Virus record (IMG/VR): IMGVR_UViG_3300034102_002456
Coordinates: 1 to 41,050 of that record
Strand: one strand, 5' to 3'
Length of the DNA: 41,050 nt
Source: a virus
Made by a program: the position numbers and the translations under genes. The notes beneath the pieces are model-generated. The model made no database searches. It was given only the letters and a program-made list of their open reading frames with translations, and was not told where the DNA came from. Positions 8,283 to 39,080 of the stretch are shown here, in pieces. Positions within the stretch are counted from its first letter, which is position 1, and each line of letters opens with the position of its first letter.

Positions 8283-11200
8283 TTATCTTCTACGTTGCAA
8301 CATGTCAACTAGAGGGTTCGACGATTGCGGGGCTTGTCCCTTTTCCTCCTTTTCCGCCTTCTTCCGGGCAGCATCCTCTTTCTTCTGGGCCTTGAGTACC
8401 GCCCCGTACTTCTCGAGCAGAGCCGCAGTCTTCAGGTCCCCGCGGGCGACGAGTTCTTCCTGAAGTTCCTTGGTGCCAGGCACCATCGTGAGAGGCCGAG
8501 CCCCTGCTGCGATCTGTAAAGCATTGATCCGATCTCGAATGTCTCGAGTGACCTGCTCCTGCGATACCGTTTCGATGCGGGCTCCACTCAACAGACGGAT
8601 TACTTTCGTAGCCGCCGTAGTCCGGGTGTCCGTAGCGATCTTGCCGGTGCTCAATAGTCGAGCGATAGGAGAGGCGGCTGCGATAGACTCCAACATCGGG
8701 CCACCGACAGGGGTGGCCCTGCCAGATGGGCTGAGTTCCTGCAGCCCGAGGTTCGTTGCAAGTCGACCGAGGGTTGGGTCAAGGTCATCCAATCGTCGGC
8801 CACCCATCGGGCCTTGGCTGAACAGACTGGTATTCGTAGAGGCCTCTACAACCCACTTCGCTGCCGGGCTGGAAGAACTGACCACTGATTGTAATAGACC
8901 TCGCCAGTCACGCTGTAATGCGTTGCCAGCATACTTCACCGCATCTTCGTGCATCAGCCCGAGAGAGGTGAGGTATTGGATGTTGCCTTCCTGGTCTTCG
9001 CCCAATCGGATGGCAGAGGTATCCTGCAGGTTGAACGGGACGTACCCTTGGTCATCCCCTTGACTTAAGCGGGTTGCTCGGACAGTCATGCCGAGGTTGC
9101 CGCCAGGGTTGACCATCAGTTCCTTGAGGAAGCGAGGGATCGACTGACGCATGAAGGAGTAGAACGGGAACAGTGGCTTGAGGTACTGGTGCTCGAACCG
9201 GGTGAAGTTCTTCGGAGACGCATTCATCAGTGCGTAGTCCGCCATCTCGAAAGTCTTAGTCAAGTCCTTCGTCTTCTCGAGATGGTCAAGGATGAACATC
9301 ATGCGGACGCTACTATCGATGCGGGACCTAAACCCGTTCATCATGTCGACACCAGCATTACTTGTCGACCGTTGGACAGACCGACCTGCGGCATCCTTGG
9401 TCCACGCCCCAGCCACGTTTAGAGGGTTCAACGCAGATTGTGAGTTGAAAGGATTAAGCGGCTTGTTCTTTATGTCTGCTGCAGTCTGACCGAACGATGC
9501 CTTGAGATGTCGGCCCAACGTCGATAAGGGGTTACTACCCTGTTCTGCAAGCTTCTCCGGGGTTCCGGTCTGCAGCATCGCCTCAGTGTCGGCAAGGCCC
9601 ATGCGTGCGTCGTCAGCCGACAGCACGTTCGGGTTGGTAGACCCGTGTCGGTAGTGAGCGTTGTACAAGTTCGAGAACACTCGAGCCCGGTTGGCCGATG
9701 TGTTCGGCTGTCCGAGTTGTGCCAAGTAGTCGTCAATCTGCTTATACCCGGCACCGGGATCTATCTGGTGACCAAGGGCGAAGTCCATTGCCTTCTTGCC
9801 ATGCTTCCAGATAGCAGCAACAGGGTTCATGTCACCTATCGCCCACGCATTCACCAACGACGAGAACCCGTCCCTTACTGCTGTGGCAGGTGCTGTCAAC
9901 ATACCCATCTTCCACCAGACACCAAGGGTTGCAGTCTTCTTCAACACCTCGCTCAACTCAGGAAGGTCGGCAGCAGTACCAATCTCGTTCAAGGTACGCA
10001 TCTGCGTCCAAGTATCCGCTGGGGCTTTCAGTGTCAGGATCTCTTCGATCTGCTTTGCGGCTGCAGCCTTGAATCCCTTTTTGGTAGGGTCCAGTGCTGG
10101 GAATCCGGGCACACCTTCAGACACCCACTTCTGCCGGAGTCGTTCAAGGAATATCCCAGGCTCGACCCGTCCTGCGAAGATGCCAGACGTACCCGCCATC
10201 GCGTCCTTCAGAGTGACACCCTCGAGCCTGGTCGAATCGAACGTGACCTTTGGGTCCGTGGTGATCTTGCCGGTGCCGTACTGCGATGGGAGCTTGTCCT
10301 GGACTTTACGAATAGCAGTGATGGCGTCGGCCATTCCAGACACGACGGTCACAGACCCCTTCATCTTGTTGAGGTACTCGTTGGCGACCAACGGAGAACT
10401 CTCGCTGTAGACTTTCTTATACCTCTTCTCGACTTTGTCCACAGCCTCGAGAGCCAACGCCCGGTGCCGGTCCACTCGCTGGACAGACATGTCCTGCACG
10501 ATGGCTGTGACCGGAGTGCCCTTGACCGCAGCGATGTTTCTCGCTGCCTTGTCTCGGATGTCTCTCATCATCTCGATTTGCTTAGGCTTCAACATAAGTG
10601 CCTGAAGGGACTCATCGTCGAGCCGGAGGAATTCCATGTTCCCCGGTTCGAGGGGGGCCGCACTGTCGACCAAGGCCTTGGTGTCTACGAACCGGTCCCT
10701 CCACCCTTTGAGAGTGTCTGAAGCAGTAACGCCCGTGGCTGATGAGGTTGCAACAGCCTTGCCTTCTGCATCCAACGATGGCATCCACTTATCAACACGG
10801 TCGGCGTAGTTCCGCCCGATCACTTGAGCGACCTCATCGTGTGCGGCTTCGAGTAGGTTAAGAGGGTCGTTGGCTAATGCGTTGTCCAATCCCTTGAGCA
10901 GCCTGTTCATCTCCACCAGCACCTTCGCCTTGTTCATCGGAGCGATGAGTAAGTCAACAGGGGCCTGCCCTTTCTTGAGAGGTCGTCTACCCCAGAACAC
11001 AGCGATGCCCTGATCGACCTGTGCCTTGGCGGCAAGGAAGTCTGTAGGGGACATGGCTCCTGCCAGCGAGGCCAGATTAGTGCTGTCGATACGAAGCATC
11101 GGTGCAGCGGCCATGTTGAAGTTGTACGTCTTCGTGGGGTCACGCAGGTCTGTCCATGATTTCCACCAACCTCGGCCAGGCTGAACCCCTTGAGCCGTAC

Positions 11201-12806
11201 CCGCAGCGATCTGTGCCTGTAGAGCATTCGCCATGTCTGTGACCTTGGTCACGAACTCGGCCTTGGTGACCTTCAGGGGAGCCTCGGCCAAGTCCCCGAA
11301 CATCTGCTCCCAAGCCTCTTCGCCCTCCATGCCCATGGCCTGTGCGAACCCTTCGGTGTGGCGTATACCCACCATGTCCGGGAACACTTTGTTTACAAGC
11401 TGAGAGTTGTTGTGGCTCAAAGGCATTGCTTGCCCATCCGCATCGAGCCTCTCAATCACGTCCTGGATCATCTTATCTTTGAACAGATTGTCGATTCCGA
11501 CAGTGCCGTCTGCAAAGGCCTTGTACTTCATCTCACGACCGCCCTCGGTCTTGAGGGTGTTCATCAAGTTCCGCTGGCTTGGTCGCATCCATGACGATTC
11601 AGTCATGCCGGTCTGAGCCTCGGCTTGACTCAACTCTGCAGACTTCTGGCGAGGGTTGTACCGGTCCATGTAGGGATCATAGGTATCCCCGGACTTTACT
11701 CCCCAGTCCTGTGCCTGAACGTGGACCCTATCGACTTCGGTAAGGTACGTATCAATCGCCTTCTTGACCCCGTCAGGGAGCACGACATTCTCATTCATGA
11801 ATGCAGGCTTTGCCCCAGACAGCGGCAAGGTTGTACCATCGACAAGGGTGACAATGTCCCCCGCTTGACGGTAGTCTACGAACTTGACCTCCTTCAACTC
11901 CCCGTTCACATCGAGGATGTCTCCTGAGTTCAGCCGAGCCGCGTTGGGGTCGTAGACACCTTCCGCATACCGAGTCATTGCGTTACGGTACGCCTTGACT
12001 TTCAGTGGGGATCCTTCTGCGAACAAGTTGGCTGGGTCGTTCAGATCAAGGTTGGGGTCCTCCTTCAGCTTGATCCCCAAACTGTCCGAAGTCATCGCCA
12101 CTTCGTTCGTGATAGCGGCGTGAAACTCTTCAGAGGCCTCCATCTGCTTACGGATGCTGACGGCCATAGGTTGCACAACTTCGTCAGTAACACCTTGGGC
12201 GTACTTGTCGAAGATTGCTTTGAACCCACTCGTTGCTTCAGATGCCTTTCGAGCGAGGTAACCCGGCACTGCACCAGGTATTGTGTCGAAGGTTTTGACA
12301 GCCCCTCGACCCAACATCTTCAGCAGAGGGTGAGCACGGTCGGCTGCGGCTATCCCTGCAGTGGCGAGCTTGGTTCCATCAAGTGCAGCCCCGATGAGTT
12401 TAGTGCCGGGACCAAACGGGTCGAGTACAACTTCGGCACCGAAGCCGAGCAAGTCCCTCACACCTTCGCCGGGGTCACTGAGCCAACCGCTCATGCCGGT
12501 CTCTCGGTTCTTCCTCATGCCGTACCGCTCAAGCAGGTCACGCCCCGACACTCGGTTGTCCGACGATAGTGGGGTTAGCCACTGGTCAAACGATCCTGCG
12601 AGACCTTCTCCCGCCAAGAGGTCACGTACGGAACTGCCGGGCAGGTCGAGGAAGTTACCAACAGACGCGACAGCACCCAGGCCAATACCGCTCAGTGAAC
12701 TCAGAGCGTCGGAGGAACTCTGATCTTCAGTTGGCGGATTGGCAAAAGTCTGGGCAGCATTGCTCGTAACCCGAGATGCTTTGAGCAGGTCAGTAAGCGT
12801 TGCCAT
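8283..12806 (-). CDS. Giant virion protein (tape-measure or internal/ejected protein)
   Basis: A 1507-residue protein with a strong GAGGTGGAG site before its ATG. Residues 50-139 form a module shared with the gene at 32148-33278 (LDLPGSS, DQW-TP, NR--GRD, ETGMSGW, GFGAE). The middle is helical with no long membrane segment. Further on come WWKMGMLTAPATAVRDGFSS and, about 250 residues later, LKPLFPFYSFMRQSIPRFL; this pair resembles conserved stretches of very large phage internal or 'polyvalent' proteins. The C-terminus is a Lys/Glu-rich coil ending SSNPLVDMLQRRR. Size and position would suit a tape measure, but the motifs fit an ejected inner protein equally well. I saw no lytic transglycosylase or peptidase motif. 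Confidence 0.75.
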   Translation of the reverse strand: MATLTDLLKASRVTSNAAQTFANPPTEDQSSSDALSSLSGIGLGAVASVGNFLDLPGSSVRDLLAGEGLAGSFDQWLTPLSSDNRVSGRDLLERYGMRKNRETGMSGWLSDPGEGVRDLLGFGAEVVLDPFGPGTKLIGAALDGTKLATAGIAAADRAHPLLKMLGRGAVKTFDTIPGAVPGYLARKASEATSGFKAIFDKYAQGVTDEVVQPMAVSIRKQMEASEEFHAAITNEVAMTSDSLGIKLKEDPNLDLNDPANLFAEGSPLKVKAYRNAMTRYAEGVYDPNAARLNSGDILDVNGELKEVKFVDYRQAGDIVTLVDGTTLPLSGAKPAFMNENVVLPDGVKKAIDTYLTEVDRVHVQAQDWGVKSGDTYDPYMDRYNPRQKSAELSQAEAQTGMTESSWMRPSQRNLMNTLKTEGGREMKYKAFADGTVGIDNLFKDKMIQDVIERLDADGQAMPLSHNNSQLVNKVFPDMVGIRHTEGFAQAMGMEGEEAWEQMFGDLAEAPLKVTKAEFVTKVTDMANALQAQIAAGTAQGVQPGRGWWKSWTDLRDPTKTYNFNMAAAPMLRIDSTNLASLAGAMSPTDFLAAKAQVDQGIAVFWGRRPLKKGQAPVDLLIAPMNKAKVLVEMNRLLKGLDNALANDPLNLLEAAHDEVAQVIGRNYADRVDKWMPSLDAEGKAVATSSATGVTASDTLKGWRDRFVDTKALVDSAAPLEPGNMEFLRLDDESLQALMLKPKQIEMMRDIRDKAARNIAAVKGTPVTAIVQDMSVQRVDRHRALALEAVDKVEKRYKKVYSESSPLVANEYLNKMKGSVTVVSGMADAITAIRKVQDKLPSQYGTGKITTDPKVTFDSTRLEGVTLKDAMAGTSGIFAGRVEPGIFLERLRQKWVSEGVPGFPALDPTKKGFKAAAAKQIEEILTLKAPADTWTQMRTLNEIGTAADLPELSEVLKKTATLGVWWKMGMLTAPATAVRDGFSSLVNAWAIGDMNPVAAIWKHGKKAMDFALGHQIDPGAGYKQIDDYLAQLGQPNTSANRARVFSNLYNAHYRHGSTNPNVLSADDARMGLADTEAMLQTGTPEKLAEQGSNPLSTLGRHLKASFGQTAADIKNKPLNPFNSQSALNPLNVAGAWTKDAAGRSVQRSTSNAGVDMMNGFRSRIDSSVRMMFILDHLEKTKDLTKTFEMADYALMNASPKNFTRFEHQYLKPLFPFYSFMRQSIPRFLKELMVNPGGNLGMTVRATRLSQGDDQGYVPFNLQDTSAIRLGEDQEGNIQYLTSLGLMHEDAVKYAGNALQRDWRGLLQSVVSSSSPAAKWVVEASTNTSLFSQGPMGGRRLDDLDPTLGRLATNLGLQELSPSGRATPVGGPMLESIAAASPIARLLSTGKIATDTRTTAATKVIRLLSGARIETVSQEQVTRDIRDRINALQIAAGARPLTMVPGTKELQEELVARGDLKTAALLEKYGAVLKAQKKEDAARKKAEKEEKGQAPQSSNPLVDMLQRRR
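12390..12659 (-). repeat. LDLPGSS module, copy in the giant virion protein
   Basis: Encodes residues 50-139. It aligns by eye with residues 12-96 of the protein at 32148-33278, sharing LDLPGSS, RD(L/I)L, FDQW-TP, NR--GRD(L/V)LE, ETGMSGW and GFGAE--LDP. The match is at protein level; the DNA has diverged. Confidence 0.8.
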
Positions 12807-12822
12807 TCACTCCACCTCATTA

Positions 12823-15447
12823 CTAGTACTGCTCTGGAAAGGCCCTGGTAACACCTGGTGGGATACCAGGAGGAGCTACTGGGTCCTCAGTCCCCCACTC
12901 AGTATCATTCGCGATTTTACTCTTGAACTTCGCCCACCACGCTTGAAGGTCAGATGGCTTAGGGTTCTTTAACTTCAAGAGGTCTTTGTACATCGGACCA
13001 AAGACCTCAGTGTGCTTTTTATCGGTGCCTGTAAACTCTACCCCATACGTCATGTCAAATGGGTCGTAGGTAGGCGTGCCGTACGCGCTGTCCATGGCTA
13101 CTACCGCAGCATACACTGCCTGCAAGTCGTCGTCCGAAGGGGATACATCCTCCTGCACCAACTTCTGTATACCGAAGTGCATGGTCTCGATGTTGTCTTC
13201 TTCACCGGTGGCTCCTGTGTCCTTCAGGAATGCATTAGGAGGTACAGTGGTCCCGTACTCATCCGCACCCCCCGCGAATGCTGTCTTCAAGTAAGACTTA
13301 GCAGCCGCCTTTCCTTCAGCGGTACGGTTGCCACCTGGTCTCATGGCTTCAGCAGCCTGCGCCATCGGGTTCTGATCCGCTCTCGCACCCCGCTGTCGTC
13401 CCATCAGGTCCGGGTATAGTATCCCGGCTTGAGACGTACCCGGAGCTACCGGGTTACCGGATCGGCGTAGTGCCTTCTCCGCCCGCAGTTGCATACGGTA
13501 CTCAGCCTCTGCCGGACTCAGCCGTCCTTCTCGCACAGCCTTCATTGTCAGAGAGTTATTGCCGTTGCTGCTGCCAGTCATTCGGTCGTACTGGCGGTAG
13601 TTCATTCCACCGTTGGCATCTTTGAAGGCTTGGTGTTTAGCGGCCCGTGCTGCGGCTTGAGCATTAGCAGCAATACGCCGCTTGGCTTCTTCTTCAGTAG
13701 CCGCGGGGTTGTCCCGGTTACGTAGTGACTCCCTAGCGGTCTTCTGCTTGGCGTACTCAGCCGCCCGAGCCTGGTACTCAGGGGTAGCCTTGAGAGCCTC
13801 GATCCGTTTCAACTCCCGAGTTTTGGGACCATCGTATCCCGGACCAGGCTCTTGCCGGAACCGATCCCCAAACGCATCGTTGCCGGGTCTAACTCGGTTG
13901 CCCGACTGAAACTCCGCACTCTGCTGGGCTGACTGGAAGTTATCTTCCGGGCTCGGACGGTTCGGATCATTCGCGTATCCGATGTTGCCGTTGTACCCGC
14001 TACCTGGTCGCATCGTCATAGGGTTCTGCAGGTCCGGCGGAACACTCTGTGCGTTTCGTCTTGCCTCCCCTGACGAGGTTGCGATAGGGGTGCCTTCCAA
14101 GAACTCATCAACCCTACGACCCTCTCGAATTGCCTCTTTCATCGCGGCTGAGGTTGGGTCGATGGGGGGGAGTTGGCGACCAGACTCGTCAAGCCGCAAC
14201 GGAGAGTTGGGGACCATAGGATTGCGAACGCCATTCTTGGCGTTAATCTCGTCAGCTAACTCTCGAAGACGCTCGTTTTTCATACGGGTGTATGCCCCCC
14301 GCTCGTAGTCCCCCATCAATTGACTCCCAGACTCCCCGAATTTTTGGAGGGGGCCTTGGCCCTGCGGGAACTCCGGATTCTCAGCAAGGGCAGAGGCGGG
14401 TCGCGGCTCTTCATACGTCATTGGCGAGGGGGACCGCCGCTGTTGGGCCGGAGGCATGAAGTTTACCAAAGGACGAGCAGGGTCCCTCTTCTCGAACGGG
14501 ACCAAAGGTTGGGCCAGTGTCGGAGAAGGAGACCTCCAAGGTTGGGCGGGAGGTATGAGGCTGGCAATAGGGTTTTCAGACGCCCTCTGTTCGATTGGGA
14601 CGTAAGGCTGAGCCTGTGCCTGTAGTCCCCCGGAGAAGACGTTCAAGGGTCTTCGTTGAGACTGGATAAAACTTTGTGCAGCGTCCGCAGGGAACATCGG
14701 GTTCCCCACACGAGCACTCGGCTCAGGCGGAACTTGGAACATCCCTCCCATGTTCTGCACAGGAGACTCCTCCTGCCCGTATTGAAAATTCTCTCGGGGC
14801 AGAGTATCAGGTCGGCGTTGTTGGCGTCGTCGACGGAACCAGTCAAATAGTTCAGCGTCAGTCCCTTCACCCCCGTCGATTAGGTAAGGGCGTTCGAACG
14901 CCTTACGCGGACCGATACCGAAGCCAGGGTCGAAGCCCGGGTCGTACTCATCTTCCTTACGCGGACCGATACCGAAGCCAGGGTCGAAGCCCGGGTCGTA
15001 CTCATCTTCCTTACGCGGACCGATACCGAAGCCAGGGTCGAAGCCAGGGTCGTACTCATCTTCAAACGAGGGCATCTGGACGGGAGGGACGTACCCGTTA
15101 CGGGGCATTCGGGACCGCAATCTCGCCCGAAACGCCTCCTCCGAGGGGTGATGTCTTGTGTCGGTTATCCACTCCTGCGAAGGGTCCCGTCGTGGAGGCT
15201 GAGCCCCGAACATCTGGCCAATCCCTTGAACCGTCTGATCCAGGCGGTTGCCAAGACCGCCAAAGAATCCCGTGGATGCGGGGGACTGCTGCATCGGATT
15301 TCCACCACGGACACTTGGTTCAGGAGGGAGTTGGAACATCCCTGAGGGTGTGGGAGGACTCGTCTGCAACCTCCGAGCGTCAATAGCCATCGGATTCCGG
15401 CTGTAGTTCATCGGCTGTACGAGCTTGTTTCCACGGGCCTTGGCCAT
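12823..15447 (-). CDS. Pro/Arg-rich repetitive virion-associated protein
   Basis: An 874-residue, largely disordered-looking protein with ATG after a CGGAG site. It carries three exact 18-residue repeats (129-182, DEYDPGFDPGFGIGPRK), two copies of GMFQ(L/V)PPEPS (36-45 and 235-244), repeated PPAQ--RSPSP stretches, and many NPM or NP(I/L/V) tetrads spread over the chain. Only the last 150 residues look well folded (DDLQAVYAAVVAMDSAYG). It lies directly before the giant virion protein and behind its own candidate promoter, so it is probably a virion or assembly factor. Scattered short motifs in a disordered chain suggest multivalent binding to a partner, which is inference. Confidence 0.7.
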   Translation of the reverse strand: MAKARGNKLVQPMNYSRNPMAIDARRLQTSPPTPSGMFQLPPEPSVRGGNPMQQSPASTGFFGGLGNRLDQTVQGIGQMFGAQPPRRDPSQEWITDTRHHPSEEAFRARLRSRMPRNGYVPPVQMPSFEDEYDPGFDPGFGIGPRKEDEYDPGFDPGFGIGPRKEDEYDPGFDPGFGIGPRKAFERPYLIDGGEGTDAELFDWFRRRRQQRRPDTLPRENFQYGQEESPVQNMGGMFQVPPEPSARVGNPMFPADAAQSFIQSQRRPLNVFSGGLQAQAQPYVPIEQRASENPIASLIPPAQPWRSPSPTLAQPLVPFEKRDPARPLVNFMPPAQQRRSPSPMTYEEPRPASALAENPEFPQGQGPLQKFGESGSQLMGDYERGAYTRMKNERLRELADEINAKNGVRNPMVPNSPLRLDESGRQLPPIDPTSAAMKEAIREGRRVDEFLEGTPIATSSGEARRNAQSVPPDLQNPMTMRPGSGYNGNIGYANDPNRPSPEDNFQSAQQSAEFQSGNRVRPGNDAFGDRFRQEPGPGYDGPKTRELKRIEALKATPEYQARAAEYAKQKTARESLRNRDNPAATEEEAKRRIAANAQAAARAAKHQAFKDANGGMNYRQYDRMTGSSNGNNSLTMKAVREGRLSPAEAEYRMQLRAEKALRRSGNPVAPGTSQAGILYPDLMGRQRGARADQNPMAQAAEAMRPGGNRTAEGKAAAKSYLKTAFAGGADEYGTTVPPNAFLKDTGATGEEDNIETMHFGIQKLVQEDVSPSDDDLQAVYAAVVAMDSAYGTPTYDPFDMTYGVEFTGTDKKHTEVFGPMYKDLLKLKNPKPSDLQAWWAKFKSKIANDTEWGTEDPVAPPGIPPGVTRAFPEQY
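14902..15063 (-). repeat. Three tandem 54-bp repeats inside a gene
   Basis: Three in-frame copies of a 54-base unit, each encoding 18 residues with DEYDPGFDPGFGIGPRK. The DNA copies differ by a single visible base in the third plus-strand copy, so the expansion is recent or kept uniform by recombination. Confidence 0.95.
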
Positions 15448-15603: not shown

Positions 15604-16206
15604 CTATGCTTTCAGTGTTTCTGCAGAACAAACCAAGGCCAAGCGGTTGTTCGCCACGTCAAAAGAGTGGGATTCGATTCTCCATCCGGCAGACCTCACC
15701 CATTGTTCCAAAACGAATTGGGTGGGGATCAACGAGACATCGACACAGCGATCCGGGGTCGGGTACACTTCGCCCACCCAGCTTTCCACGTTCCGGGATA
15801 GCCCAGGTAGAATGTGTCCCTCAATGACTGCCTTGTCCGCGAACTTTCGCAGTCGCACCATCGCTCCAATCGGATCTGGCAAGTGGTAGTAGACACCGCA
15901 GAACCAAGCTAGATCGAATTTACCTTCGATGGGGTATTCTTCAAATCGGCTCGTGACGTACCTGGCCTTGGAGCCCAACTCTCTGTGGGCTGCAAGGTAT
16001 GTCGGCAGGGAGACGACATCGACTGAGGTAACCTGAGCCCCACGGGCCTCCATCTCGAACGACCACCGACCGTCCAAACAGCCGATGTCGATTACGGACT
16101 TGCCTCTCAGGTCTCCGAGGTTTGTCATTACTGCCTCCAAGTGAGGCTGGTCCCAATCCCCGTTTGTCAATCCGGTGGGTAACTTTATCTTGTGTCTGTA
16201 CTTCAT
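15604..16206 (-). CDS. SAM-dependent methyltransferase
   Basis: A 200-residue class I methyltransferase: VIDIGCLDGRW (38-48) is the glycine-rich SAM loop, D63 in TSVDV matches the acidic residue that binds the ribose, and FDLAWFCGVYYHLPDP follows as the post-strand-4 motif. The family includes small-molecule, sugar and protein methylases, so the acceptor cannot be told from sequence. The ATG overlaps the stop of the glycosyltransferase-FkbM gene (ATGA), so the two are translated together and probably act in one pathway modifying a sugar. Confidence 0.8.
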   Translation of the reverse strand: MKYRHKIKLPTGLTNGDWDQPHLEAVMTNLGDLRGKSVIDIGCLDGRWSFEMEARGAQVTSVDVVSLPTYLAAHRELGSKARYVTSRFEEYPIEGKFDLAWFCGVYYHLPDPIGAMVRLRKFADKAVIEGHILPGLSRNVESWVGEVYPTPDRCVDVSLIPTQFVLEQWVRSAGWRIESHSFDVANNRLALVCSAETLKA

Positions 16207-18302
16207 GTCGTCCTCTTTGCCCAGAAGTTGCCGTGAGTGCGTTCGTGTTCAATGACTCGGTACACCTCAAATCCTCGGGTCTGAAGAAATATCTTCAGGG
16301 CCTGTAGAGACCACACGTCATCGACGTGGTGGTACTCCCCAAGGATGTGCTCCACCCGATGGAGTTCGGTGCAGGTCATCAGGATCGGGTATTCAGCCCC
16401 TTCACAGTCCAGCTTGAGGATGTGGACCTTCTCGAACTGTTGAAGAATTGAATCGAGGCTGGTCGTCTCCACCGTGATACGGGGACCTCGCTGAGGTAAC
16501 ACTGCCGACATGGACCCAGAGTGCAGGTCCCTGTGGGAAGGAGCGAGTTCCAACTTCATCCCTTCCTGATCGGACCGCCACACTGCCTTCCTCACTAGGC
16601 TGAACCGACTCCCAAAATCGGAGCAGTTCTTCTCAGCTAAGTCTGCAACCGGCCCTGGCTCATATGCTACGACGGTTCCCGCACCTCGGCGGAGGCAGGC
16701 GTATGAGAACGCTCCGGAGTTCGCCCCAATATCTATCACGACCTCGTCTGCGGGGACTGTCGGGGCTAAAAGGTATTCGTTCCTGCCGAGAACATCGAGC
16801 CAGGTTTCCCGGCTAATCCGATCGTTCTCGATATGGAAGCATCTCTCTGGGGCGATACATCGCATGGCATCCTCGATGGACCCGTCGAGAAACGCAAGAG
16901 GCGACTTGAATGCTGCCGCCTCAGCAATCAAAGTATTGCCCACCAAGTTTTGGATCGCATGCCCATTGTTCAGGTGTCCCTTGCGGTGGCATGCGTGCTG
17001 GAATATCAGTTGGCCGGAAGGGTCTTGGTGCTCGTAGAACCCGCCGGGATTCCACCGATTCCATGGTTGGATGTAGTGTGGGGTATTGGTCAACTTGAAC
17101 CCCATGTGGAAACTCGTTTTGTCTCCGTACCAAACTCCCCGTTCGCCCCCGTTAAATCCCTCCCAGTAGTCAGCACGGTCTGCAAAGTGCTTCACGATCT
17201 TGAGGGCCTTGGCTCCTCTCCGTTTGTCGATCAACATCTGACCAGTTTCAATATCGTTGATCCTGTCCTTGCGGTTTGACCCGACACGGATCCACTGGTC
17301 TTCGATTATGCGACCGTGGTAGTCATTGACATGTGGGTTGTCCATCCAAAACAGGGCTGCGTGTTGTTTGAAAGTCTCACTGTCGAACAGATACGTTGGG
17401 TCTTTGGCAACGATGTTGTCGGCATCGAGGTGGAGGATCTGCTGATACTCGCTTTGGAGGATCGCGTTGATCTTGATCTGCCATCCGTGGACGCATCGCA
17501 TGCCTGTGGTATCAACGACGTGGCAGGTTGCCGCGACCCGCCGAGCATGGAGTTCACAGAACTCGATTTCTTCCATCTCACCTGGTAAGAACCAGAACTG
17601 AATGGGTAGGGTGCATCCATACGATCGGAGAACCCAAGCTGCCGCGTAGGCTCCCCAGAAATAGTATTGGGGAGCGTTCCTGTCGTAGATCGTGCAACGC
17701 CCACCTGCAGGGATGAGGATAGCTCGGGAGGTTGGGTCCAACTTTGGCTCCACGACCGGCTCACCCAAGACACCTCGGAGCATCTCTCGATGGTACTCGA
17801 CCACGTTAGGCCAGTCCCTCCACCCGTTCGGCCAACCATGTGCCGGGGAGTGTAGGCGGACGGATAGCTCAGCCTGGCTTAGATGCTTATGTGGGGCGGA
17901 CTCGGCCATGTTGATCGCTTCTAAGACAAGGTTTCTGAGTTGTCGTTTCCCCTCGAGTTTCCCGATGAAGGGAATCCGGAGTGCCATCCGAACTACAGTG
18001 GACACGGATGGGTTTGTCGAGGCCTCTTCAAGCAGGTGGTCAACGATCTCTTCTATATGCTCACGACAACCGTCGACACCCCAGACGTTCATCCGATCGA
18101 TCCACTCCTGACATTTGCACGACGCCATCTTGGCCCCGTGTCTCTCCTTGAGGAGGTCATGCAGAGTGTTCCCTGGAAACCGTTGGGGCCCCAGTCGTAT
18201 CGACTCTCCTCGGGACTTCGCAGCGTCAATGACCTTCTGGGCTCGACGACCGAAGGGGGTGTCGTTGTCTATCTCAATCTGCCACTGTTCTGGGATTCTC
18301 AT
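16203..18302 (-). CDS. Fused glycosyltransferase and FkbM-type methyltransferase
   Basis: A 699-residue two-enzyme protein. Residues 1-185 form an unassigned N-terminal domain with several Cys (SCKCQEWIDRMNVWGVDGC). About 205-450 resembles putative mannosyltransferases of the MNN1/Mannosyl_trans3 type: YYFWGAYAAAWVLRSYGC, then LDADN (292-296) as the metal- and nucleotide-sugar-binding DxD. About 515-690 is an FkbM-family methyltransferase with VVIDIGANSG (521-530), E548 and LKLDCEGAE (629-637). Together they would add a hexose and O-methylate a sugar. It lies among tail genes, directly after Ser-rich and Cys-rich virion proteins, so a virion protein is a plausible acceptor; a host surface glycan is the alternative. 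Confidence 0.8.
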   Translation of the reverse strand: MRIPEQWQIEIDNDTPFGRRAQKVIDAAKSRGESIRLGPQRFPGNTLHDLLKERHGAKMASCKCQEWIDRMNVWGVDGCREHIEEIVDHLLEEASTNPSVSTVVRMALRIPFIGKLEGKRQLRNLVLEAINMAESAPHKHLSQAELSVRLHSPAHGWPNGWRDWPNVVEYHREMLRGVLGEPVVEPKLDPTSRAILIPAGGRCTIYDRNAPQYYFWGAYAAAWVLRSYGCTLPIQFWFLPGEMEEIEFCELHARRVAATCHVVDTTGMRCVHGWQIKINAILQSEYQQILHLDADNIVAKDPTYLFDSETFKQHAALFWMDNPHVNDYHGRIIEDQWIRVGSNRKDRINDIETGQMLIDKRRGAKALKIVKHFADRADYWEGFNGGERGVWYGDKTSFHMGFKLTNTPHYIQPWNRWNPGGFYEHQDPSGQLIFQHACHRKGHLNNGHAIQNLVGNTLIAEAAAFKSPLAFLDGSIEDAMRCIAPERCFHIENDRISRETWLDVLGRNEYLLAPTVPADEVVIDIGANSGAFSYACLRRGAGTVVAYEPGPVADLAEKNCSDFGSRFSLVRKAVWRSDQEGMKLELAPSHRDLHSGSMSAVLPQRGPRITVETTSLDSILQQFEKVHILKLDCEGAEYPILMTCTELHRVEHILGEYHHVDDVWSLQALKIFLQTRGFEVYRVIEHERTHGNFWAKRTT

Positions 18303-18438
18303 CTGGGCTGTTCAATCCTATCTCTGAGAGGTATTCAACCTCACGGGCCTTGATGTCGGTAATGTCTGAGTGAATGACTACGTGTAGGCAGCAGGAAACA
18401 AGGATCGAAGCGAGCGTCGTACAAATGACTTCTGTCAT
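18274..18438 (-). CDS. Hidden 54-residue single-pass membrane protein
   Basis: A short frame starts at an ATG that overlaps the upstream stop (TGATG) and ends with TGA 29 bases inside the next gene. The protein begins MTEVICTTLASILVSCCLHV, a probable membrane helix of about 20 residues with three Cys, followed by a charged tail (DITDIKAREVEYLSEIGLNS). Tight coupling at both ends supports it as a gene. It occupies a gap of about 135 bases that would otherwise be unexplained. The function is unknown. Confidence 0.55.
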   Translation of the reverse strand: MTEVICTTLASILVSCCLHVVIHSDITDIKAREVEYLSEIGLNSPDENPRTVAD

Positions 18439-18968
18439 CACGGTGTCTCATAAACTAGGATGGAAAAACATAGTGTGGGGTGAAGGACTGGCGGCAGCGG
18501 CGGCATGATCGATGCGATACAAGCCATCGCTGGATTCCAGCAGATCGTGCCTGTCAGCATAATGGGATCACAACTGACCCGAGTCAAGACTACGTTTGCG
18601 GGTGGAAGGACACTCAGCGGCCCTCCTGACCCTGCCCAATTCCACTCCAACAGCCAGCCCGCTCCGGCAGAACATTGGATGATGACGTGACTGTCGAATG
18701 TCCAAGTGCAACTTAACCCAGAGTCGTAGTAGCAGCAAAACGTACAGGTTCCTGTCACTCGACCGAGTCCCCACCGACCGTACTCAATCAAGGTCACAGT
18801 CGTGGACATTGTCCAACAACCGTATGGAGAGTCTGTCGTGATCTCCACGGTCAGGGAGGACGGCATCGGGTTTTCACCGGGAGCACCTGTGCAAGTCCCC
18901 GGCTGCAACGCACTGATGTATGGATTACATCTCTCAGTGCAGCATGTAGTTCCACAACAGCATGACAT
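18438..18968 (-). CDS. Cysteine-rich probable virion surface protein
   Basis: A 176-residue protein with 17 Cys, starting MSCCCGTTCCTERC. The ATG overlaps the upstream stop as TAATG, which is why I reject the longer frame that starts inside the previous gene. Cys occur along the whole chain, including CTFCC and single residues in beta-like stretches, suggesting several disulfides or metal sites in an extracellular domain. It also contains a lone NPM. It pairs with the (Gly-Ser)-tract protein and precedes the glycosyltransferase, so it is a good candidate for a decorated tail-tip protein. No family was recognised. Confidence 0.65.
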   Translation of the reverse strand: MSCCCGTTCCTERCNPYISALQPGTCTGAPGENPMPSSLTVEITTDSPYGCWTMSTTVTLIEYGRWGLGRVTGTCTFCCYYDSGLSCTWTFDSHVIIQCSAGAGWLLEWNWAGSGGPLSVLPPANVVLTRVSCDPIMLTGTICWNPAMACIASIMPPLPPVLHPTLCFSILVYETP

Positions 18969-19948
18969 TACGATCCGCTCCCTGATCCGCTCCCGGAGGT
19001 TGGACAAGGATCCAAACAATCGGTCAATGCCCCTCCAAAGAACCAGATGCGGTTGTATCTTGTAAACTGAATGACGTTAGTGACTGGGCAGCACTCCACC
19101 TCCGCTGGGATCTCGGCAACGCATCGAGACCGTTTGCCAAACAGCACGACCCATCCCGTCCAGTCAGAACTTCCTGATCCACTGCCCGAACCTGATCCAC
19201 TGCCTGACCCGGAACTGCAGACTGACCATTTCGCGAGGCCGACCTTCCCCGCTTTATACCCGGCAGGGACCAAGGCATTCACACTCCCTATCTCCGTACA
19301 CAGGTCAAACTCCATGTCGATGAATGTCGTATCTCCTGACCCACTGCCCGAACCAGACCCTAACCAGGACCCTTCTGGTTCTGGTTCTGCTCCGGACCCT
19401 GACCCGGATCCAGACCCTGAGCAGTTTGATGTGCCGCACATGACCGCCGTGAAAGTTGCAAGGTCTGCAGTGCTGTAGAGCGAGATGGGAAGGATGCAGT
19501 CATCTTGGCCTGAGTCCTGCCCAAGTACGCCAAACGCGAACTCAGCAGATCCTCCTGCCCCTCCCCCGACCTGAACGACTGAGGCTACCCCGTCGACAGG
19601 CTGGTGCATCACGTAAAACCCGGTGCCCGCTGTTGACATGGCCCAAGAGCCAGACACAGGTCCGACCTGTGTACCGACTGCAGGAGACCCGTCCACCTTA
19701 GCGAGTTGGGGACGGCTCCACAGAAGGCTCTCACCCTTCTTGGTGCTGACTACCGCTGCCGCTCCATTCGCGAAGAACAATCCTGCAGTGTCATTGGGTT
19801 TTGAGGCTTGACTGTACCCCGTCGCATAGTTGGTACGCAGTTGCACGACACCGTACGCAGGGATCGTTTCGCCTGAGACGTTGACCCACCGCAGTGTGTC
19901 TTCCATCGCCGCGGTAGTTCGGTGAGGGCCTGAAGTACGGTCAGTCAT
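18968..19948 (-). CDS. Tail protein with four (Gly-Ser)n tracts
   Basis: A 326-residue protein. Residues 1-170 form an apparently folded N-terminal domain (TLRWVNVSGETIPAYGVVQL, typical of phage tail accessory domains). It continues with four (Ser-Gly) tracts at about 177-186, 197-205, 245-261 and 318-326 that separate small Cys-containing modules (CTEIGSVNALVPAG; RCVAEIPAEVECC). The tracts would be flexible linkers or O-glycosylation sites. The gene overlaps its neighbour by eight bases and is TAATG-coupled to the Cys-rich gene. A glycosyltransferase lies two genes downstream. Confidence 0.7.
   Translation of the reverse strand: MTDRTSGPHRTTAAMEDTLRWVNVSGETIPAYGVVQLRTNYATGYSQASKPNDTAGLFFANGAAAVVSTKKGESLLWSRPQLAKVDGSPAVGTQVGPVSGSWAMSTAGTGFYVMHQPVDGVASVVQVGGGAGGSAEFAFGVLGQDSGQDDCILPISLYSTADLATFTAVMCGTSNCSGSGSGSGSGAEPEPEGSWLGSGSGSGSGDTTFIDMEFDLCTEIGSVNALVPAGYKAGKVGLAKWSVCSSGSGSGSGSGSGSGSSDWTGWVVLFGKRSRCVAEIPAEVECCPVTNVIQFTRYNRIWFFGGALTDCLDPCPTSGSGSGSGS
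19166..19420 (-). repeat. Low-complexity Gly-Ser coding tracts
   Basis: Three internal tracts of alternating Ser and Gly codons fall here (19166-19216, 19334-19360 and 19391-19420), and a fourth ends the gene at 18971-18997. Codons within the tracts vary (TCA, AGT, TCT, TCC with GGA, GGC, GGG, GGT), so the peptide repeat is kept while the DNA is not a pure microsatellite. This suggests selection on the peptide. Confidence 0.85.
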
Positions 19949-21593
19949 CTGCGTACTCCTTCTTCGCTAGTTTCTTGGCCTGCCTCAAGATACTCACCTT
20001 CGATGATGTAGCCCTAAGATGTGCGACCCTCTGTGCCCTTGAGGGAACGCCCTTGTCGAACTCAAAATGCCGAGCGGCCTCTGTGCGGTTAACCGCAGCC
20101 CCAAGATTCCCGGCGGTGAGAGTGTGCTTGACTTGCAGTATTGCACCGTCGCACCTGAGTGTCAACACCGGCTCGTGATAAACCTTGAACTGGCTGGCTG
20201 TCGTTGCATAAGATGCCGCAACTGCGGTAGCCCACGCATCTCCCAGAGCGATGAGAGCCGCCTGGTTTGTGGTCGTCGACGTAACAACGTGGCTGCTGTT
20301 GTACCCGAAGATAGACTCCGCTGCCTGCTCATGCTTGATCGTGTGATACCCTGTGCCGGTAGGAACAACCTCCACGTCATACTCGTAGTGGTTCCATGCA
20401 AAGTTGGTCTGGTTGCGAGCCCCGATTGTACACTCCAACCAAAGGTCTGCGGCTTTGTACTCGGAGGAGACCATCCGCCAGATAGGCTTGCTGAAGATTA
20501 TGATGCCGTTCTCACCGTCGAAGTGCATGGCCCGGCCCGTGACCCGGTCTCCTATTGCGGTGTCTGCTCCGCCAGGGATCGGTGGCTGACCGGTCTCATC
20601 CTCCAACCGATGGTACTGGCCGTATACTTTAAAGGGAGTGCGTGACTCGTCCGCCCGGATGGCTTCGGTCTCAAGCAGCCGATTCTGCAGGGGCAGGATG
20701 TCTGTCAAACCGCTTAGGGCTCCAGACCCGTCTGGTGGATTCCAAGTCTCGTCTGCGAAACCCATGACCCGGTACGCTCGTCGGACATAGCCAACCGCTT
20801 CGATCTTTTGCTCTTCTGTGAGTCCATCAACAGCGTCGGGCAAAGAGTATGGAGGAATAGCTTCCCACCCCGCGGCGGGCTTGTACGACAGGCTGTCGAT
20901 CGCTTTCCAAGTCCCGTCTGTATCGAGCCCTATCGCCTCCAACTTCAGTCGCACTTGAGCGACTGAGTTAGCGAAGCAGTTGCGTACGTACCGAGGCACG
21001 GTCTTAGCATCGATTGTGTCTGAGGAGATGAACTGCCCCGTCGAAGACAGGGCTGCTCCTGTGCCAAGCTTAACGACAGTGACTGCGTCTGAGCCGAACC
21101 CCAACGCCACAGAGTATCCATGCTCCTCGAAGAGAGTCTGTGCCGCCTCAATGACTGACTCGCACTCCCAGGATACTGGTGGGTAAATTGTCGTGGGCAA
21201 GGCCGATACGTCCGCACCGCCCTCTCCCAAGGCTGTCATGAGCAGAGCCCCGAGTTGTCTCAAGGTCCTCTGCTTGCCCATCACAAACTGGCCTGCTCGG
21301 ATCAGGTTGTACTCTCCGCTGATGGGGGCTGCTAGCCTCCAATACTCTCGCCGGTCGAGCACTTTGAGTTGAACAAACTTACCGTCCGGTGTGACTTTGA
21401 GCGAGCCCAAGTCCACGACGCAGTTGGGCAACGTAATCGTGGTCGCCTCCCACGTCATTGTGATCGTACCTACAGCAGGCAGGTCAGGAACCTGTGGGTT
21501 GCACCGTAGCATTGCCACGTCAGGCTGGAACCCCAGCGTTTGGCTGTAGATAAGCTCAACCGGGTATGAGATGTTGGGCATTGACCATGTCAT
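19941..21593 (-). CDS. Tail tip or baseplate-hub-like protein
   Basis: A 550-residue protein coupled by ATGA to the preceding gene. The N-terminal half has features seen in distal-tail and hub proteins (PVELIYSQTLGFQPDVAMLR; LKVLDRREYWRLAAPISGEY at about 75-95). The C-terminal third is beta-rich, ending in a basic helical tail (SILRQAKKLAKKEYADD). No lysozyme or peptidase motif was seen. Its place between tail proteins and the Gly-Ser protein supports a tail-tip role. The exact family is not certain. Confidence 0.6.
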   Translation of the reverse strand: MTWSMPNISYPVELIYSQTLGFQPDVAMLRCNPQVPDLPAVGTITMTWEATTITLPNCVVDLGSLKVTPDGKFVQLKVLDRREYWRLAAPISGEYNLIRAGQFVMGKQRTLRQLGALLMTALGEGGADVSALPTTIYPPVSWECESVIEAAQTLFEEHGYSVALGFGSDAVTVVKLGTGAALSSTGQFISSDTIDAKTVPRYVRNCFANSVAQVRLKLEAIGLDTDGTWKAIDSLSYKPAAGWEAIPPYSLPDAVDGLTEEQKIEAVGYVRRAYRVMGFADETWNPPDGSGALSGLTDILPLQNRLLETEAIRADESRTPFKVYGQYHRLEDETGQPPIPGGADTAIGDRVTGRAMHFDGENGIIIFSKPIWRMVSSEYKAADLWLECTIGARNQTNFAWNHYEYDVEVVPTGTGYHTIKHEQAAESIFGYNSSHVVTSTTTNQAALIALGDAWATAVAASYATTASQFKVYHEPVLTLRCDGAILQVKHTLTAGNLGAAVNRTEAARHFEFDKGVPSRAQRVAHLRATSSKVSILRQAKKLAKKEYADD

Positions 21594-22351
21594 GAGTTCA
21601 CGCTGGGCAGCATAAAGGCATTGAATCCCTGGCTCGTGGTAGCTTCCATGAAGTACTTCCAGGATGTCGCGAACATCTCCGCACCTCCAACGACTATGTC
21701 TTTGGCTGTCTCGAAGGTATATACCCGCATCTCTCCATGTTCAATGGATGGGTACAGTGGGTCCGCGGGTGGTTCAAAGTCCTGCCGCCCCACGTTCTCC
21801 CCTTCCTGCACATACCAGAAGGATGTTGCTGTCTGGAGGATCTGGGCCTGAGGTTCTCCCGTCTGCTGAGGGCTGTACCTCCAGAGGGGGCCTCCTGTGC
21901 CCTTGACCGTGACTCGTTCGTTCCAGGAGTAGAGGCCGCTGCCTACCCGGATCTCCGCCCGCAGGACAAGGAAGTACGTGCGTCGGTTGAGGTACTCAAT
22001 GCGTCCTGTCCAAGGGCCGTTCATGAACGAAGGGGGGACTGCGACCTTGGTCCCACCAAAAGTCTCGCTGTTGCTTACAACGTGGCGGGTAGGGGTAGTC
22101 CCGTCGTCATGGTACAACCCAAAATCCATGTAGTCGACATTGTATGCGTCAGTGAGGTCCTGCAGAGCCGAGGTTAGGTTGGCCTTGGTCACCTCTGGAT
22201 TGGGGTCGTCCGCGACCTGCTTCACGCCAATGATCGTATACTCAATCATATCGCCCATGCGACGATTGAACTTATCGAAGATGCCCTGCACGGAAGTGCG
22301 GACCATCACCTCGTCTTGATCATGTGTGTAACTGCCATACTTGAACTTCAT
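21590..22351 (-). CDS. Probable tail structural protein
   Basis: A 253-residue protein, ATGA-coupled at both ends. It begins MKFKYGSYTHDQDEVMVRTS and is rich in aromatic residues and beta-type stretches (GRIEYLNRRTYFLVLRAEIR), with a Trp-containing middle (LWRYSPQQTGEPQ). No signal peptide or enzyme motif is visible. Its location between the tail-assembly pair and the tail-tip-like gene suggests a minor tail component. The family was not recognised. Confidence 0.6.
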   Translation of the reverse strand: MKFKYGSYTHDQDEVMVRTSVQGIFDKFNRRMGDMIEYTIIGVKQVADDPNPEVTKANLTSALQDLTDAYNVDYMDFGLYHDDGTTPTRHVVSNSETFGGTKVAVPPSFMNGPWTGRIEYLNRRTYFLVLRAEIRVGSGLYSWNERVTVKGTGGPLWRYSPQQTGEPQAQILQTATSFWYVQEGENVGRQDFEPPADPLYPSIEHGEMRVYTFETAKDIVVGGAEMFATSWKYFMEATTSQGFNAFMLPSVNS

Positions 22352-23052
22352 AGGTAGTACCTGTCCAGATCAGAAGAGGCTCCTTCGTTGCCTTGGTATG
22401 ACCGTGCGACAAAGGCTTCAGTTGACTCCAACTTCAGGTCATCCAGGTTCGCCCGGATCTCTCGGACCTTTGCCGGGTCCTGACGTGGGGGTAATTCTAA
22501 CTGTTCGTCGACGGCAGAGAAAGCCTCTTTTGGATCGATTGGGAATGCGGGTGGTACTGAGATCGTGACCTGTGTCTTTGGGGTGGGGCTAGCGGCTCCT
22601 ACGAGCGTCTCTCGCTGCTTCCGTTCGGCAGGCATCCCGGCAATCGCCTCCAGGATCTTCGGCGTTGCTACGCGGCCCATGAACGTCTCAGGCGACATCA
22701 CCTTGACCTTCACGTCCATGTTCGGCATGCCGGTCTTAGGATCCGCTGTCGCCCCCACTGTCTGTTGAGCCTGCTGAGCCTGTGCAGACTGACCCGCTGC
22801 CCGGATCTGCTGAAGGGGATTCGCTGTCGGCCCCACCGCAGGCTGAGGAAACATAAACTTGCTTTGAACGCCAGGTACAGCTTGGGGCGGGCTTGCTTTC
22901 GCATCCGGTACCGCAGGCCCCGGCTGCACAACCCCCTCCTGTGCAACTCTTTCGATCGACACTCGGTCCAGCAGTTCCTTGGGCCTTGTCATCGGGGCGT
23001 CTTCGGCGGGGGCCTCGGCCAATAAACGGATCAAACCTTCGATCTCGATCAT
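22348..23052 (-). CDS. Tail-assembly partner reading frame, possibly reached by frameshift
   Basis: A 234-residue frame overlapping the previous gene by 317 bases in the +1 frame. It has its own ATG (MIEIEGLIRLLAEAPAEDAP) but only a weak AGAG site, and an in-frame TAG lies six bases upstream of the ATG. The protein is helical and Gln/Ala/Pro-rich (QSAQAQQAQQTVG), with an acidic, conserved-looking end. Its place just after the tail tube gene is where lambda-like phages keep the G/GT pair of tail chaperones made by frameshifting. It could be made alone, as a fusion, or both. Confidence 0.6.
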   Translation of the reverse strand: MIEIEGLIRLLAEAPAEDAPMTRPKELLDRVSIERVAQEGVVQPGPAVPDAKASPPQAVPGVQSKFMFPQPAVGPTANPLQQIRAAGQSAQAQQAQQTVGATADPKTGMPNMDVKVKVMSPETFMGRVATPKILEAIAGMPAERKQRETLVGAASPTPKTQVTISVPPAFPIDPKEAFSAVDEQLELPPRQDPAKVREIRANLDDLKLESTEAFVARSYQGNEGASSDLDRYYL

Positions 23053-23599
23053 ACTCTACTATCCAATCAAGCAGGAGTTTATTCCGCTGGAAGATCAGGT
23101 CGTCTTTCAACGCATGGTCTTGTACGTTCCTGTATGTCCAGTAATGGTTCCAAGTCTTAGCCCATCTCGGGTTAGACAGACCTAGCGGATCATTGTGGTG
23201 TCGCTTCAAACAACCTTGTGTTGTCTCACAAGGGACACTGATCCCGCCGGGAATCCTCTTCGGCTTTTCGTCCGGCCCGTACTGTACTTCACCAGTCAGA
23301 TGGTCAACTGCGAACTGTTGGCAGTCACGGCAGTCGAGCATGCTCAGACCAGGGTTGTACAAGACATGCAACTGAACACTGTCGTTGAGGTCTTGAAAGT
23401 CCTGCTTCTCTTTGGCAACATCATACTCCGCGATGCACTGAAGCATCTCTGGGGTGGCTTGCTGCCGAAAGAAGCATTTGTCGAACAACAACATCCTGAG
23501 ATGTTTGTGGTCCCTGATAGGGTCATCATGTAGAAGTGGACGGCAAGGTTTGCCGTCCACATCAAAGGTGAATCCATCATCGAGTTCTGGGTCGATCAT
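22736..23599 (-). CDS. Cys-containing tail-assembly-chaperone candidate
   Basis: A 287-residue frame directly after the tail tube gene, overlapping it by four bases. Residues 1-195 look like a real protein, with a possible zinc site from C90, C93, C124 and C130 (DCRDCQ; PCETTQGC) and an aromatic stretch (WAKTWNHYWTYRN). After about residue 197 the chain becomes an odd Cys/Gly/Ser/Arg-rich string (SCTGGGCAAGACGTGC) that reads like the wrong frame. This is just where the overlapping frame at 22348-23052 looks protein-like, so ribosomes may switch frames near 23008-23012. The stop at 22736 is used if they do not. Confidence 0.6.
   Translation of the reverse strand: MIDPELDDGFTFDVDGKPCRPLLHDDPIRDHKHLRMLLFDKCFFRQQATPEMLQCIAEYDVAKEKQDFQDLNDSVQLHVLYNPGLSMLDCRDCQQFAVDHLTGEVQYGPDEKPKRIPGGISVPCETTQGCLKRHHNDPLGLSNPRWAKTWNHYWTYRNVQDHALKDDLIFQRNKLLLDWIVEYDRDRRFDPFIGRGPRRRRPDDKAQGTAGPSVDRKSCTGGGCAAGACGTGCESKPAPSCTWRSKQVYVSSACGGADSESPSADPGSGSVCTGSAGSTDSGGDSGS
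23006..23014 (-). other. Candidate +1 frameshift site
   Basis: In the zero frame the minus strand reads GGC CCC CGC at codons 196-198. A tRNA-Pro on CCC could slip one base forward on the run of five C, so the next codon becomes GCC in the frame of the 22348-23052 gene. This gives a fusion of about 197 residues of the first protein plus the rest of the second. The zero-frame sequence turns unlike a protein just after this point. No stimulatory structure was identified. Confidence 0.35.
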
Positions 23600-24467: not shown

Positions 24468-24998
24468 CTATCTGTGGTGACGGACCATTACCTGGAATGT
24501 GAACATTGCGACTTGCTGTTCATGCCGAACCAGACTCTGGGCATCTGCGGGCAATCTCTTTAACGGATGTACTACGAAGGGATCATACTCTTCTGGATCA
24601 GCATCCTGCAAGAAGGGGTTTGGTACGGTGGTGAACTTCAGCCGAATGATATTCATCCAGTTGGCGTAAGTCCTTGCCGGACCTTCATGTTGGTGAGGAG
24701 TGGAATCAATTATCTGTATGGCTACTTTGTGGACCTCATCGTCCGCACAGTTGAGCCCGGCACCAAGGGTTGATTCGACTGGAAGGGGAGTGATAAGAAT
24801 ACCCGGCATGATCAGGTTCTGGAGACCTTCTGTCGTGTTATTCCTCTCACTCCCCTCCAGCACTTTCCAGATACGAACTGCCTGAGGTATGACGGATCGT
24901 ACCCGTTCACCTTGTGCCGCCACGAATTCACCGTTGGCGGCTGCGGTTTGGATGATGCGGTACGTGCGGTCAAGTATTGCCCAGTCAGGGTTCGCCAT
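24468..24998 (-). CDS. Tail-completion or tail-terminator candidate
   Basis: A 176-residue protein just before the tail tube gene. It has mixed alpha/beta character (MPGILITPLPVESTLGAG; VHKVAIQIIDST) and ends with VAMFTFQVMVRHHR, a beta strand common at the end of tail-terminator and minor tail proteins that interact with the tube. It overlaps the preceding gene by 14 bases. Assignment rests on position and general pattern. Confidence 0.5.
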   Translation of the reverse strand: MANPDWAILDRTYRIIQTAAANGEFVAAQGERVRSVIPQAVRIWKVLEGSERNNTTEGLQNLIMPGILITPLPVESTLGAGLNCADDEVHKVAIQIIDSTPHQHEGPARTYANWMNIIRLKFTTVPNPFLQDADPEEYDPFVVHPLKRLPADAQSLVRHEQQVAMFTFQVMVRHHR

Positions 24999-25218
24999 CT
25001 GAATCGTCTTCTATGAGTTGGTATTCCTGAAACATGACCTGCTTCGCAAAGTCGGCCAGACCGAGGCGGGGTAAAAAGTCTCCCCTCCAAAACACCTCGC
25101 TAGATCCTTGTTTCTCGGACATCAGCTTTGTGCCGGTAAACACTGCGGCATCGAACCTGCAGAGCAGTTCTTTGATCAGGTCGTCTGTTGACGCTAGCTC
25201 AAGATCCTGTCCCGACAT
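24985..25218 (-). CDS. Small phage protein between connector and tail genes
   Basis: I take the ATG at 25218 (MSGQDLELASTDDLIKELL), giving 77 residues. A longer frame reaching 25386 would overlap the connector gene by about 190 bases and adds a sequence that does not look like protein. A second ATG nine bases upstream (25227) is also possible. The start overlaps the end of the connector gene. The protein is acidic and helical with FDAAVFTGTKL in the middle. It is probably a small head-tail or regulatory protein; no family was recognised. Confidence 0.5.
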   Translation of the reverse strand: MSGQDLELASTDDLIKELLCRFDAAVFTGTKLMSEKQGSSEVFWRGDFLPRLGLADFAKQVMFQEYQLIEDDSDGEP

Positions 25219-33278: not shown

Positions 33279-33290
33279 GTTGTGCTCCAA

Positions 33291-36443: not shown

Positions 36444-36683
36444 ATGAGTCTCAACCCAGACGAGATGAACCAGTACTTGTCGGCCAAAGAGGTCGTCGCC
36501 CTCCTGTCCGGCATAGGCATTGAAGTAACCGATGATACAGTCCGGTTGTGGATTACCCGCGGCCTGAAAAACAGAAACGCCCCGGCAAGCCATCACTGGC
36601 TCCGGGGCGTTCGCATTGGGGGTAGATTGTACGTCGTACGGGAAGAACTGATTAAGTGGATCCCTCTGATACAACAGGGCTAA
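36444..36683 (+). CDS. Small MerR/excisionase-type helix-turn-helix protein
   Basis: The only clear plus-strand gene. Its 79 residues contain YLSAKEVVALLSGIGIEVT, then DDTVRLWITRGLKN and VRIGGRLYVVREELIKWI, the winged-helix pattern of the HTH_17/excisionase group (tyrosine-poor helix, recognition helix near 'TVRLWI', wing 'VRIGGR'). It is convergent with the double serine recombinase, overlapping its stop by four bases, and preceded by a candidate promoter with overlapping inverted repeats. It could be a recombination directionality factor or a repressor of lysogeny-linked genes. The ribosome binding site is weak. Confidence 0.7.
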   Translation: MSLNPDEMNQYLSAKEVVALLSGIGIEVTDDTVRLWITRGLKNRNAPASHHWLRGVRIGGRLYVVREELIKWIPLIQQG

Positions 36684-39078: not shown

Positions 39079-39080
39079 CG

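Follow-up and report, generated by a model that had tools for sequence, protein, structure and literature searches.

A putative swappable tail-tip cassette in which a Ser-Gly-rich virion module may travel with the enzymes for its glycosylation and methylation

Investigating a 41,050-nucleotide stretch of viral DNA (positions 1 to 41,050 of the IMG/VR record IMGVR_UViG_3300034102_002456; hereafter the window), we characterised a gene cassette at positions 15,604 to 19,948, all open reading frames (ORFs) of which lie on the minus strand. It encodes a protein with Ser-Gly (SG) tracts, here called the anchor, a Cys-rich protein, a transmembrane (TM) micro-ORF, a fusion of a glycosyltransferase (GT) with an FkbM methyltransferase, and a second methyltransferase. 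With a probability of roughly 0.6, we read this as a swappable tail-tip or adhesion cassette, in which an acceptor protein and the enzymes dedicated to its glycosylation and methylation travel together. The tip end, its Cys-rich partner and the predicted sugar-adding and sugar-methylating enzymes move as one unit between otherwise unrelated, uncultured phages. This joint movement suggests that the phages sugar-coat attachment devices of their own, using enzymes kept for this task. The features are as follows, the cassette type of the window being designated type A:

19941..21593, minus strand: upstream flank, a 550-aa backbone virion gene, 58-68% identical in siblings bearing different cassettes
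18968-19948, minus strand: anchor (SG protein), 326 aa, with four SG tracts
19568..19948, minus strand: N-terminal part of the anchor, residues 1-127, backbone-specific, presumed virion-docking domain
19550..19567, minus strand: Gly-rich hinge GGGAGG, the module junction; homology junctions lie in or beside it
18968..19549, minus strand: C-terminal module of the anchor, type A, with interspersed Cys, conserved across type A cassettes
19391..19420, minus strand: SG tract 1, residues 177-186, mixed Ser codons
19334..19360, minus strand: SG tract 2, residues 197-205
19166..19216, minus strand: SG tract 3, residues 245-261
18971..18997, minus strand: SG tract 4, C-terminal, residues 318-326
18438..18968 from the ATG (ORF 18438-19019), minus strand: Cys-rich protein with head-type domain, 176 aa, 17 Cys
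18274-18438, minus strand: micro-ORF, 54 aa, one TM helix and a charged tail, overlapping the fusion start by 29 nt
16203..18302, minus strand: three-part fusion, 699 aa, of an N-terminal CxC domain, a GT71-like glycosyltransferase and an FkbM methyltransferase
16863..17732, minus strand: GT-A (Mannosyl_trans3/GT71-like) region of the fusion, PF11051 at residues 214-321, DXD at 293-295
16206..16760, minus strand: FkbM methyltransferase domain of the fusion, PF05050 at residues 524-679, phrog_8156
15604..16206, minus strand: accessory class I methyltransferase, CmoB/UbiG-like, 200 aa, Methyltransf_23, PDB 4qnu at 3e-8
12823..15447, minus strand: downstream flank, where, as in 8283-12806, homology to siblings starts again

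Our comparison set comprised about 120 viral loci (L numbers below). The fusion occurs in 13 other viral contigs, giving 9 distinct lineages when the window is counted, and in each of these it is accompanied by the SG C-terminus and the Cys protein (and by a TM ORF in 8/9), on four kinds of virion N-terminus. The gene neighbourhood that the original prediction had proposed to look for in other phages was hence found. A tblastn search of INPHARED (50,697 phage records) gave no match to the fusion, and neither the fusion, sought by pattern, nor the portal turned up when 84,980 species genomes were scanned for each. Two of the lineages (L011, L012) share the structural backbone of the window; in six others (L003, L004, L006, L007, L008, L013) no window gene was matched by tblastn at 1e-3 save the SG C-terminal half and the fusion, and the gene order there is SG protein, Cys protein, TM micro-ORF, fusion, the divergent Cys protein being visible by alignment and not by tblastn. 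When the SG C-terminus alone served as query, only fusion-bearing phages were returned, together with one contig ending at that very point, and the fusion is present in all SG C-terminus loci long enough to judge. Conversely, none of the 39 loci of another cassette type (type B) with at least two downstream genes contains the GT71-FkbM fusion. Homologous recombination between conserved flanks can carry functionally unrelated neighbours along in a recombination hot spot; we reject such passive linkage as the main explanation and regard it as very improbable, since the set is retained, in constant order, in backbones without homologous flanks, and since the enzyme is under strong purifying selection (dN/dS, the ratio of nonsynonymous to synonymous substitution rates, is 0.04-0.09 among the closer full-length relatives with measurable dS).

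The second line of evidence concerns the junctions, module swapping being a feature which the original prediction did not contain. Siblings were obtained by scans with upstream backbone genes. In L031, L033, L034, L035 and L037, the region from the terminase through the 550-aa protein is mostly 58-93% identical to the window, and the first ~117 anchor residues are 50-65% identical and divergent thereafter (L031 ends there). L033 and L035 match the structural genes of the window at mostly 60-78% identity and part from it at anchor residue ~117, and in L033 and L037 homology restarts at 12823-15447 or 8283-12806. The siblings thus retain the first ~117-127 anchor residues, and their C-termini, Cys proteins and enzymes differ from those of the window. 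Residues 1-127 show about 42-65% identity with L011, L012, L031, L033, L035 and L037, all of the same structural backbone, and have no counterpart in other backbones in the anchor comparison; the type A C-terminal module is 43-62% identical outside Ser and Gly to every other type A cassette, irrespective of the N-terminus. In an all-against-all comparison of anchors, N-terminus families separate from C-terminus families. The junction can be placed to the nucleotide in L045, which shares 81% of its C-terminal domain with L037 on a different N-terminus: the DNA match with L040, of the same backbone, runs up to L045:10957 and that with L037, of the same cassette, starts at L045:10957, so that backbone and cassette homology meet at one nucleotide, which falls in the Gly codons of the hinge. 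A conserved N-terminal anchor with an exchanged C-terminus is the layout of modular receptor-binding proteins, receptor binding itself being a prediction here.

The fusion proposed from the sequence was upheld, as both Pfam families score above their curated cut-offs (Mannosyl_trans3 PF11051, 77.5 bits against 22; Methyltransf_21 PF05050, 51.9 bits against 22.7). Loss of motif residues had been named as an outcome that would speak against the enzymes; they are intact, and the DXD motif (D293-A-D295), S-adenosylmethionine (SAM) motif I VVIDIGANSGAF and KxDCEG(A/S)E are invariant in the relatives. Score and DXD motif together identify a GT71-like domain, for which mannosyltransferase activity is at most predicted, and score, SAM motif I and KxDxEGxE identify an FkbM domain. 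No solved-structure relative of the fusion was found by profile search, two chance-level matches (E 0.089) being disregarded. The second methyltransferase (Methyltransf_23, 40.7 bits, cut-off 27) overlaps the fusion by 4 nt, in agreement with the claimed translational coupling; the Cys gene is not coupled directly to the fusion, from which it is separated by a 135-nt gap that the micro-ORF fills. Since this methyltransferase is present only in contigs of the same phage as the window and has no counterpart in the other lineages, it is accessory, and its assignment to the module did not hold. As a side observation, the GT and FkbM parts (window 16203-17732) are 80% identical in DNA to L040, an L003-type locus, from residue ~191 on, in comparison to 71% over 133 nt in the CxC part, a likely sign of recent recombination between different backbones.

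All four SG tracts of the original prediction are present in the anchor. Their Ser codons are a mixture of TCN and AGY, which rules out an origin by DNA slippage and indicates that it is the amino-acid sequence of the tracts, rather than a repeat in the DNA, that is maintained; together with the low dN/dS of the fusion, this argues that selection acts on the protein. The terminal tract is found in all type A relatives, and Ser-rich tracts recur in the anchors of types C and D and of a long-stalk form. A role of the SG tract as sugar acceptor is plausible; we go no further because most type B anchors lack Ser-rich tracts, yet their cassettes carry GTs.

The Cys-rich protein, correctly predicted to lie beside the anchor with 17 Cys, probably starts at the ATG at 18968, which overlaps the SG stop codon. 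Its N-terminal CCCG..CC is conserved, and its body is related to the heads in which the large type B Cys proteins end; type A Cys proteins match such heads with 43% (L013), 53% (L011) and, for the window, 31% identity at E 2e-6. The micro-ORF, which the original prediction had overlooked, has equivalents of 48-63 aa in eight of the nine type A lineages (L012 being without), and TM micro-ORFs also occur in L044, L046, L047 and L049; the micro-protein may serve to keep either the enzyme or the head membrane-bound.

To which part do the enzymes belong? Across L118, L119 and L120 the GT region is 94-98% identical and the anchor surroundings 84-88%, and no DNA similarity was found across their small Cys genes, whose products resemble domains found at the C-termini of larger Cys proteins of other phages. 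Because sister heads are unrelated and match such domains elsewhere, the Cys head is a second unit that is exchanged separately, which is what one would expect if it binds a target. Because the GT stays while the head changes, the GT belongs with the Ser-rich anchor. The type A pairs L003/L008 and L004/L007 behave alike, with heads about 52% and GTs 88-93% identical. GT divergence moreover follows that of the anchor C-terminus across the nine type A lineages (Mantel r = 0.87, p = 0.0005). It could be argued that the enzyme modifies the Cys-rich head, alternating SG being a classic flexible linker and most type B cassettes combining large Cys proteins and GTs with anchors free of Ser tracts; we consider this unlikely, given that sister phages replace the head wholly while keeping the same GT and that Ser-rich stalks of ~300 residues, as in the long-stalk form, exceed the needs of a linker.

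The tail-tip position is predicted from gene order. In siphovirus-type relatives (L004, L007 and L008 types), the tape-measure gene is followed by one gene, the anchor, the Cys protein and the enzymes, which is the place of tail-tip genes; the head modules of L004 and L008 differ, with major head phrog_371 in one and portal phrog_12 in the other. The 'tail operon' of the original prediction thus draws its support from these relatives, in which the cassette lies one gene past the tape measure, while in the window itself the one minor-tail match is weak and a tape measure was not recognised. Of the two targets originally considered, self-modification of the virion is better supported than modification of host glycans, because inheritance of the enzymes follows the C-terminal half of a virion protein, even between unrelated phages. 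Enzymes altering host surface glycans, in order to block superinfection or change the serotype, might also reside in a tail locus, if host range and receptor alteration were exchanged together: selection could favour receptor-binding modules jointly with enzymes that alter the receptor, and the small TM protein ahead of the enzyme could tether it to the membrane. We judge this improbable, as no gtrABC-type flippase or polytopic GT was seen in the cassette (a one-TM micro-ORF only, and no such Pfam match), the enzymes sit within a structural gene run, and they track the virion-protein C-terminus, staying linked to Ser-rich anchors even where the head, which is the putative receptor-binding part, is swapped.

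Virion glycosylation is therefore the reading we favour, and several points weigh against it. Glycosylation is predicted here from gene content, and the anchor and the Cys protein are assigned to the virion by the position of their genes. AlphaFold models of the fusion (9 sequences) and the anchor (14) are of low confidence (pLDDT 50.6 and 36.4), and a fold search with the former gave weak class I methyltransferase and GT-A matches (glycogenin/UGGT/GlyE 5gvv) alongside spurious ones. The TM micro-ORF could indicate a membrane or host-envelope process. In most type B cassettes GTs lie downstream of anchors without Ser-rich tracts, so the acceptor may differ by type. Finally, GT divergence in the type A lineages also correlates with that of the Cys protein (r = 0.80); the difference from 0.87 is slight and alone would not decide the acceptor, whose assignment therefore rests mainly on the sister comparison.

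Under virion self-glycosylation, the Gly-rich hinge would connect a docking domain owned by the backbone with a C-terminal module that can be exchanged and that, in the window, is rich in Ser and Gly; next come the Cys-rich head protein, in most cases a small membrane protein as well, and the enzymes. The anchor C-terminus and the Cys head would form the attachment tip; in the cell, during late gene expression, the GT71-like GT-A domain would add a sugar to the Ser-rich module (less likely to the Cys head) and the fused FkbM domain would O-methylate it. A dedicated glycosylation set would thus be inherited together with its acceptor, and the glycan might serve in binding, shielding or solubility.

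The other cassette types vary this arrangement. Type B is characterised by a C-terminal domain 'IWFTI...RATYMYP' (68 loci, on at least four unrelated N-termini), a Cys protein mostly of ~400-700 aa, and GT2-type or other transferases, methyltransferases and sometimes a 2-oxoglutarate (2OG) oxygenase. The Cys protein of 10/45 type B loci carries an FGE-sulfatase (C-type lectin fold) insert (L057, a contig of L037; L061, identical to L045; L109, identical to L049; and seven others), and a crude motif scan revealed no diversity-generating reverse transcriptase near these. Type C (L035) combines a Ser-rich anchor with a rhamnosyltransferase-like enzyme, type D is represented by L046, and in L118-L122 (from 5509) the anchor ends in a Ser-rich stalk ~300 residues long, and the genes downstream include a cytidylyltransferase-like one (CTP_transf_like). 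In L049, a 2OG-Fe(II) oxygenase (L049:15008-15625) lies next to a GT and a methyltransferase, and hydroxylation followed by glycosylation is conceivable. Tentatively, and with somewhat less than even confidence, we generalise that phages exchange complete glycoprotein adhesins, in which an acceptor stalk with its own GT/methyltransferase pathway (some with hydroxylase or cytidylyltransferase) plugs into unrelated virions by a Gly hinge and bears a separately exchangeable Cys-rich binding head.

Phage receptor-binding proteins are known to be modular, their N-terminal anchor being conserved and their C-termini horizontally exchanged; unlike these, the unit described here also brings enzymes predicted to modify it. 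Loci of Gram-positive serine-rich-repeat adhesins (e.g. PsrP with GlyE) encode a Ser-rich surface stalk beside dedicated GTs and may be the closest functional parallel: SG tracts in the window and long stalks in L118-L122 and L035 likewise adjoin GTs, and the low-confidence GT model weakly resembles GlyE. These adhesins are cellular and have their own accessory secretion (SecA2/SecY2), which one would not expect of a phage, whereas the window genes belong to a phage virion. Mycobacteriophages (Che8, Corndog, Myrna) glycosylate capsid and tail tube proteins with their own GTs, and cluster O mycobacteriophages encode a GT beside an O-methyltransferase (Freeman et al. 2023, cited in PMC12363180, PMC11600133). 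As far as the excerpts of these sources go, phage-encoded GTs, a methyltransferase neighbour and the own virion as target (presumed in the window) are common to both systems, while the acceptors are capsid and tail tube there and, presumably, a swappable tail-tip module here; the excerpts describe no counterpart of the GT-methyltransferase fusion, the Ser-rich module or the Cys head, and the tblastn search of the phage records revealed no homologous GT. In the algal virus PBCV-1, A064R joins two GTs to a methyltransferase which O-methylates rhamnose, and A061L is a separate second methyltransferase (PMC9614988). The likeness is one of architecture, GT then methyltransferase in one polypeptide plus a separate methyltransferase, and makes A064R the closest known analogue in design, although it has two GT domains and acts on an N-glycan of the virus itself. 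In the open-access literature searched, we found neither a description of such a module nor a Ser/glycosylation cassette combined with module exchange in phage tail tips.

Some further features of the window should be mentioned. A protein at 36680-38266 has tandem resolvase catalytic domains (two Pfam stretches), an unusual serine recombinase layout, and 38146-39084 encodes a C5 cytosine DNA methyltransferase. Two ORF pairs overlap in different frames, by 317 nt (22348-23052 / 22736-23599) and 188 nt (24985-25386 / 25199-26356), with both ORFs matched in most siblings; each is possibly a frameshift pair or a case of dual coding. The 1507-aa (8283-12806) and 380-aa (32148-33290) proteins are related to each other in their N-terminal segments (about 51% over ~106 aa), and the 874-aa protein (12823-15447) contains EDEYDPGFDPGFGIGPRK three times consecutively.

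Tail tips built from modules are known already, and so are virions that glycosylate themselves; an exchanged tip that brings along enzymes for sugar transfer and methylation would connect the two. If true, the reason for phage virion glycosylation, be it attachment, shielding or stability, becomes testable, as nature provides matched pairs (same backbone with different cassettes, same cassette on different backbones, same enzymes with different heads) for experiments on enzyme specificity. Glycoprotein engineering might, moreover, draw acceptor/GT/methyltransferase pairs from such cassettes.

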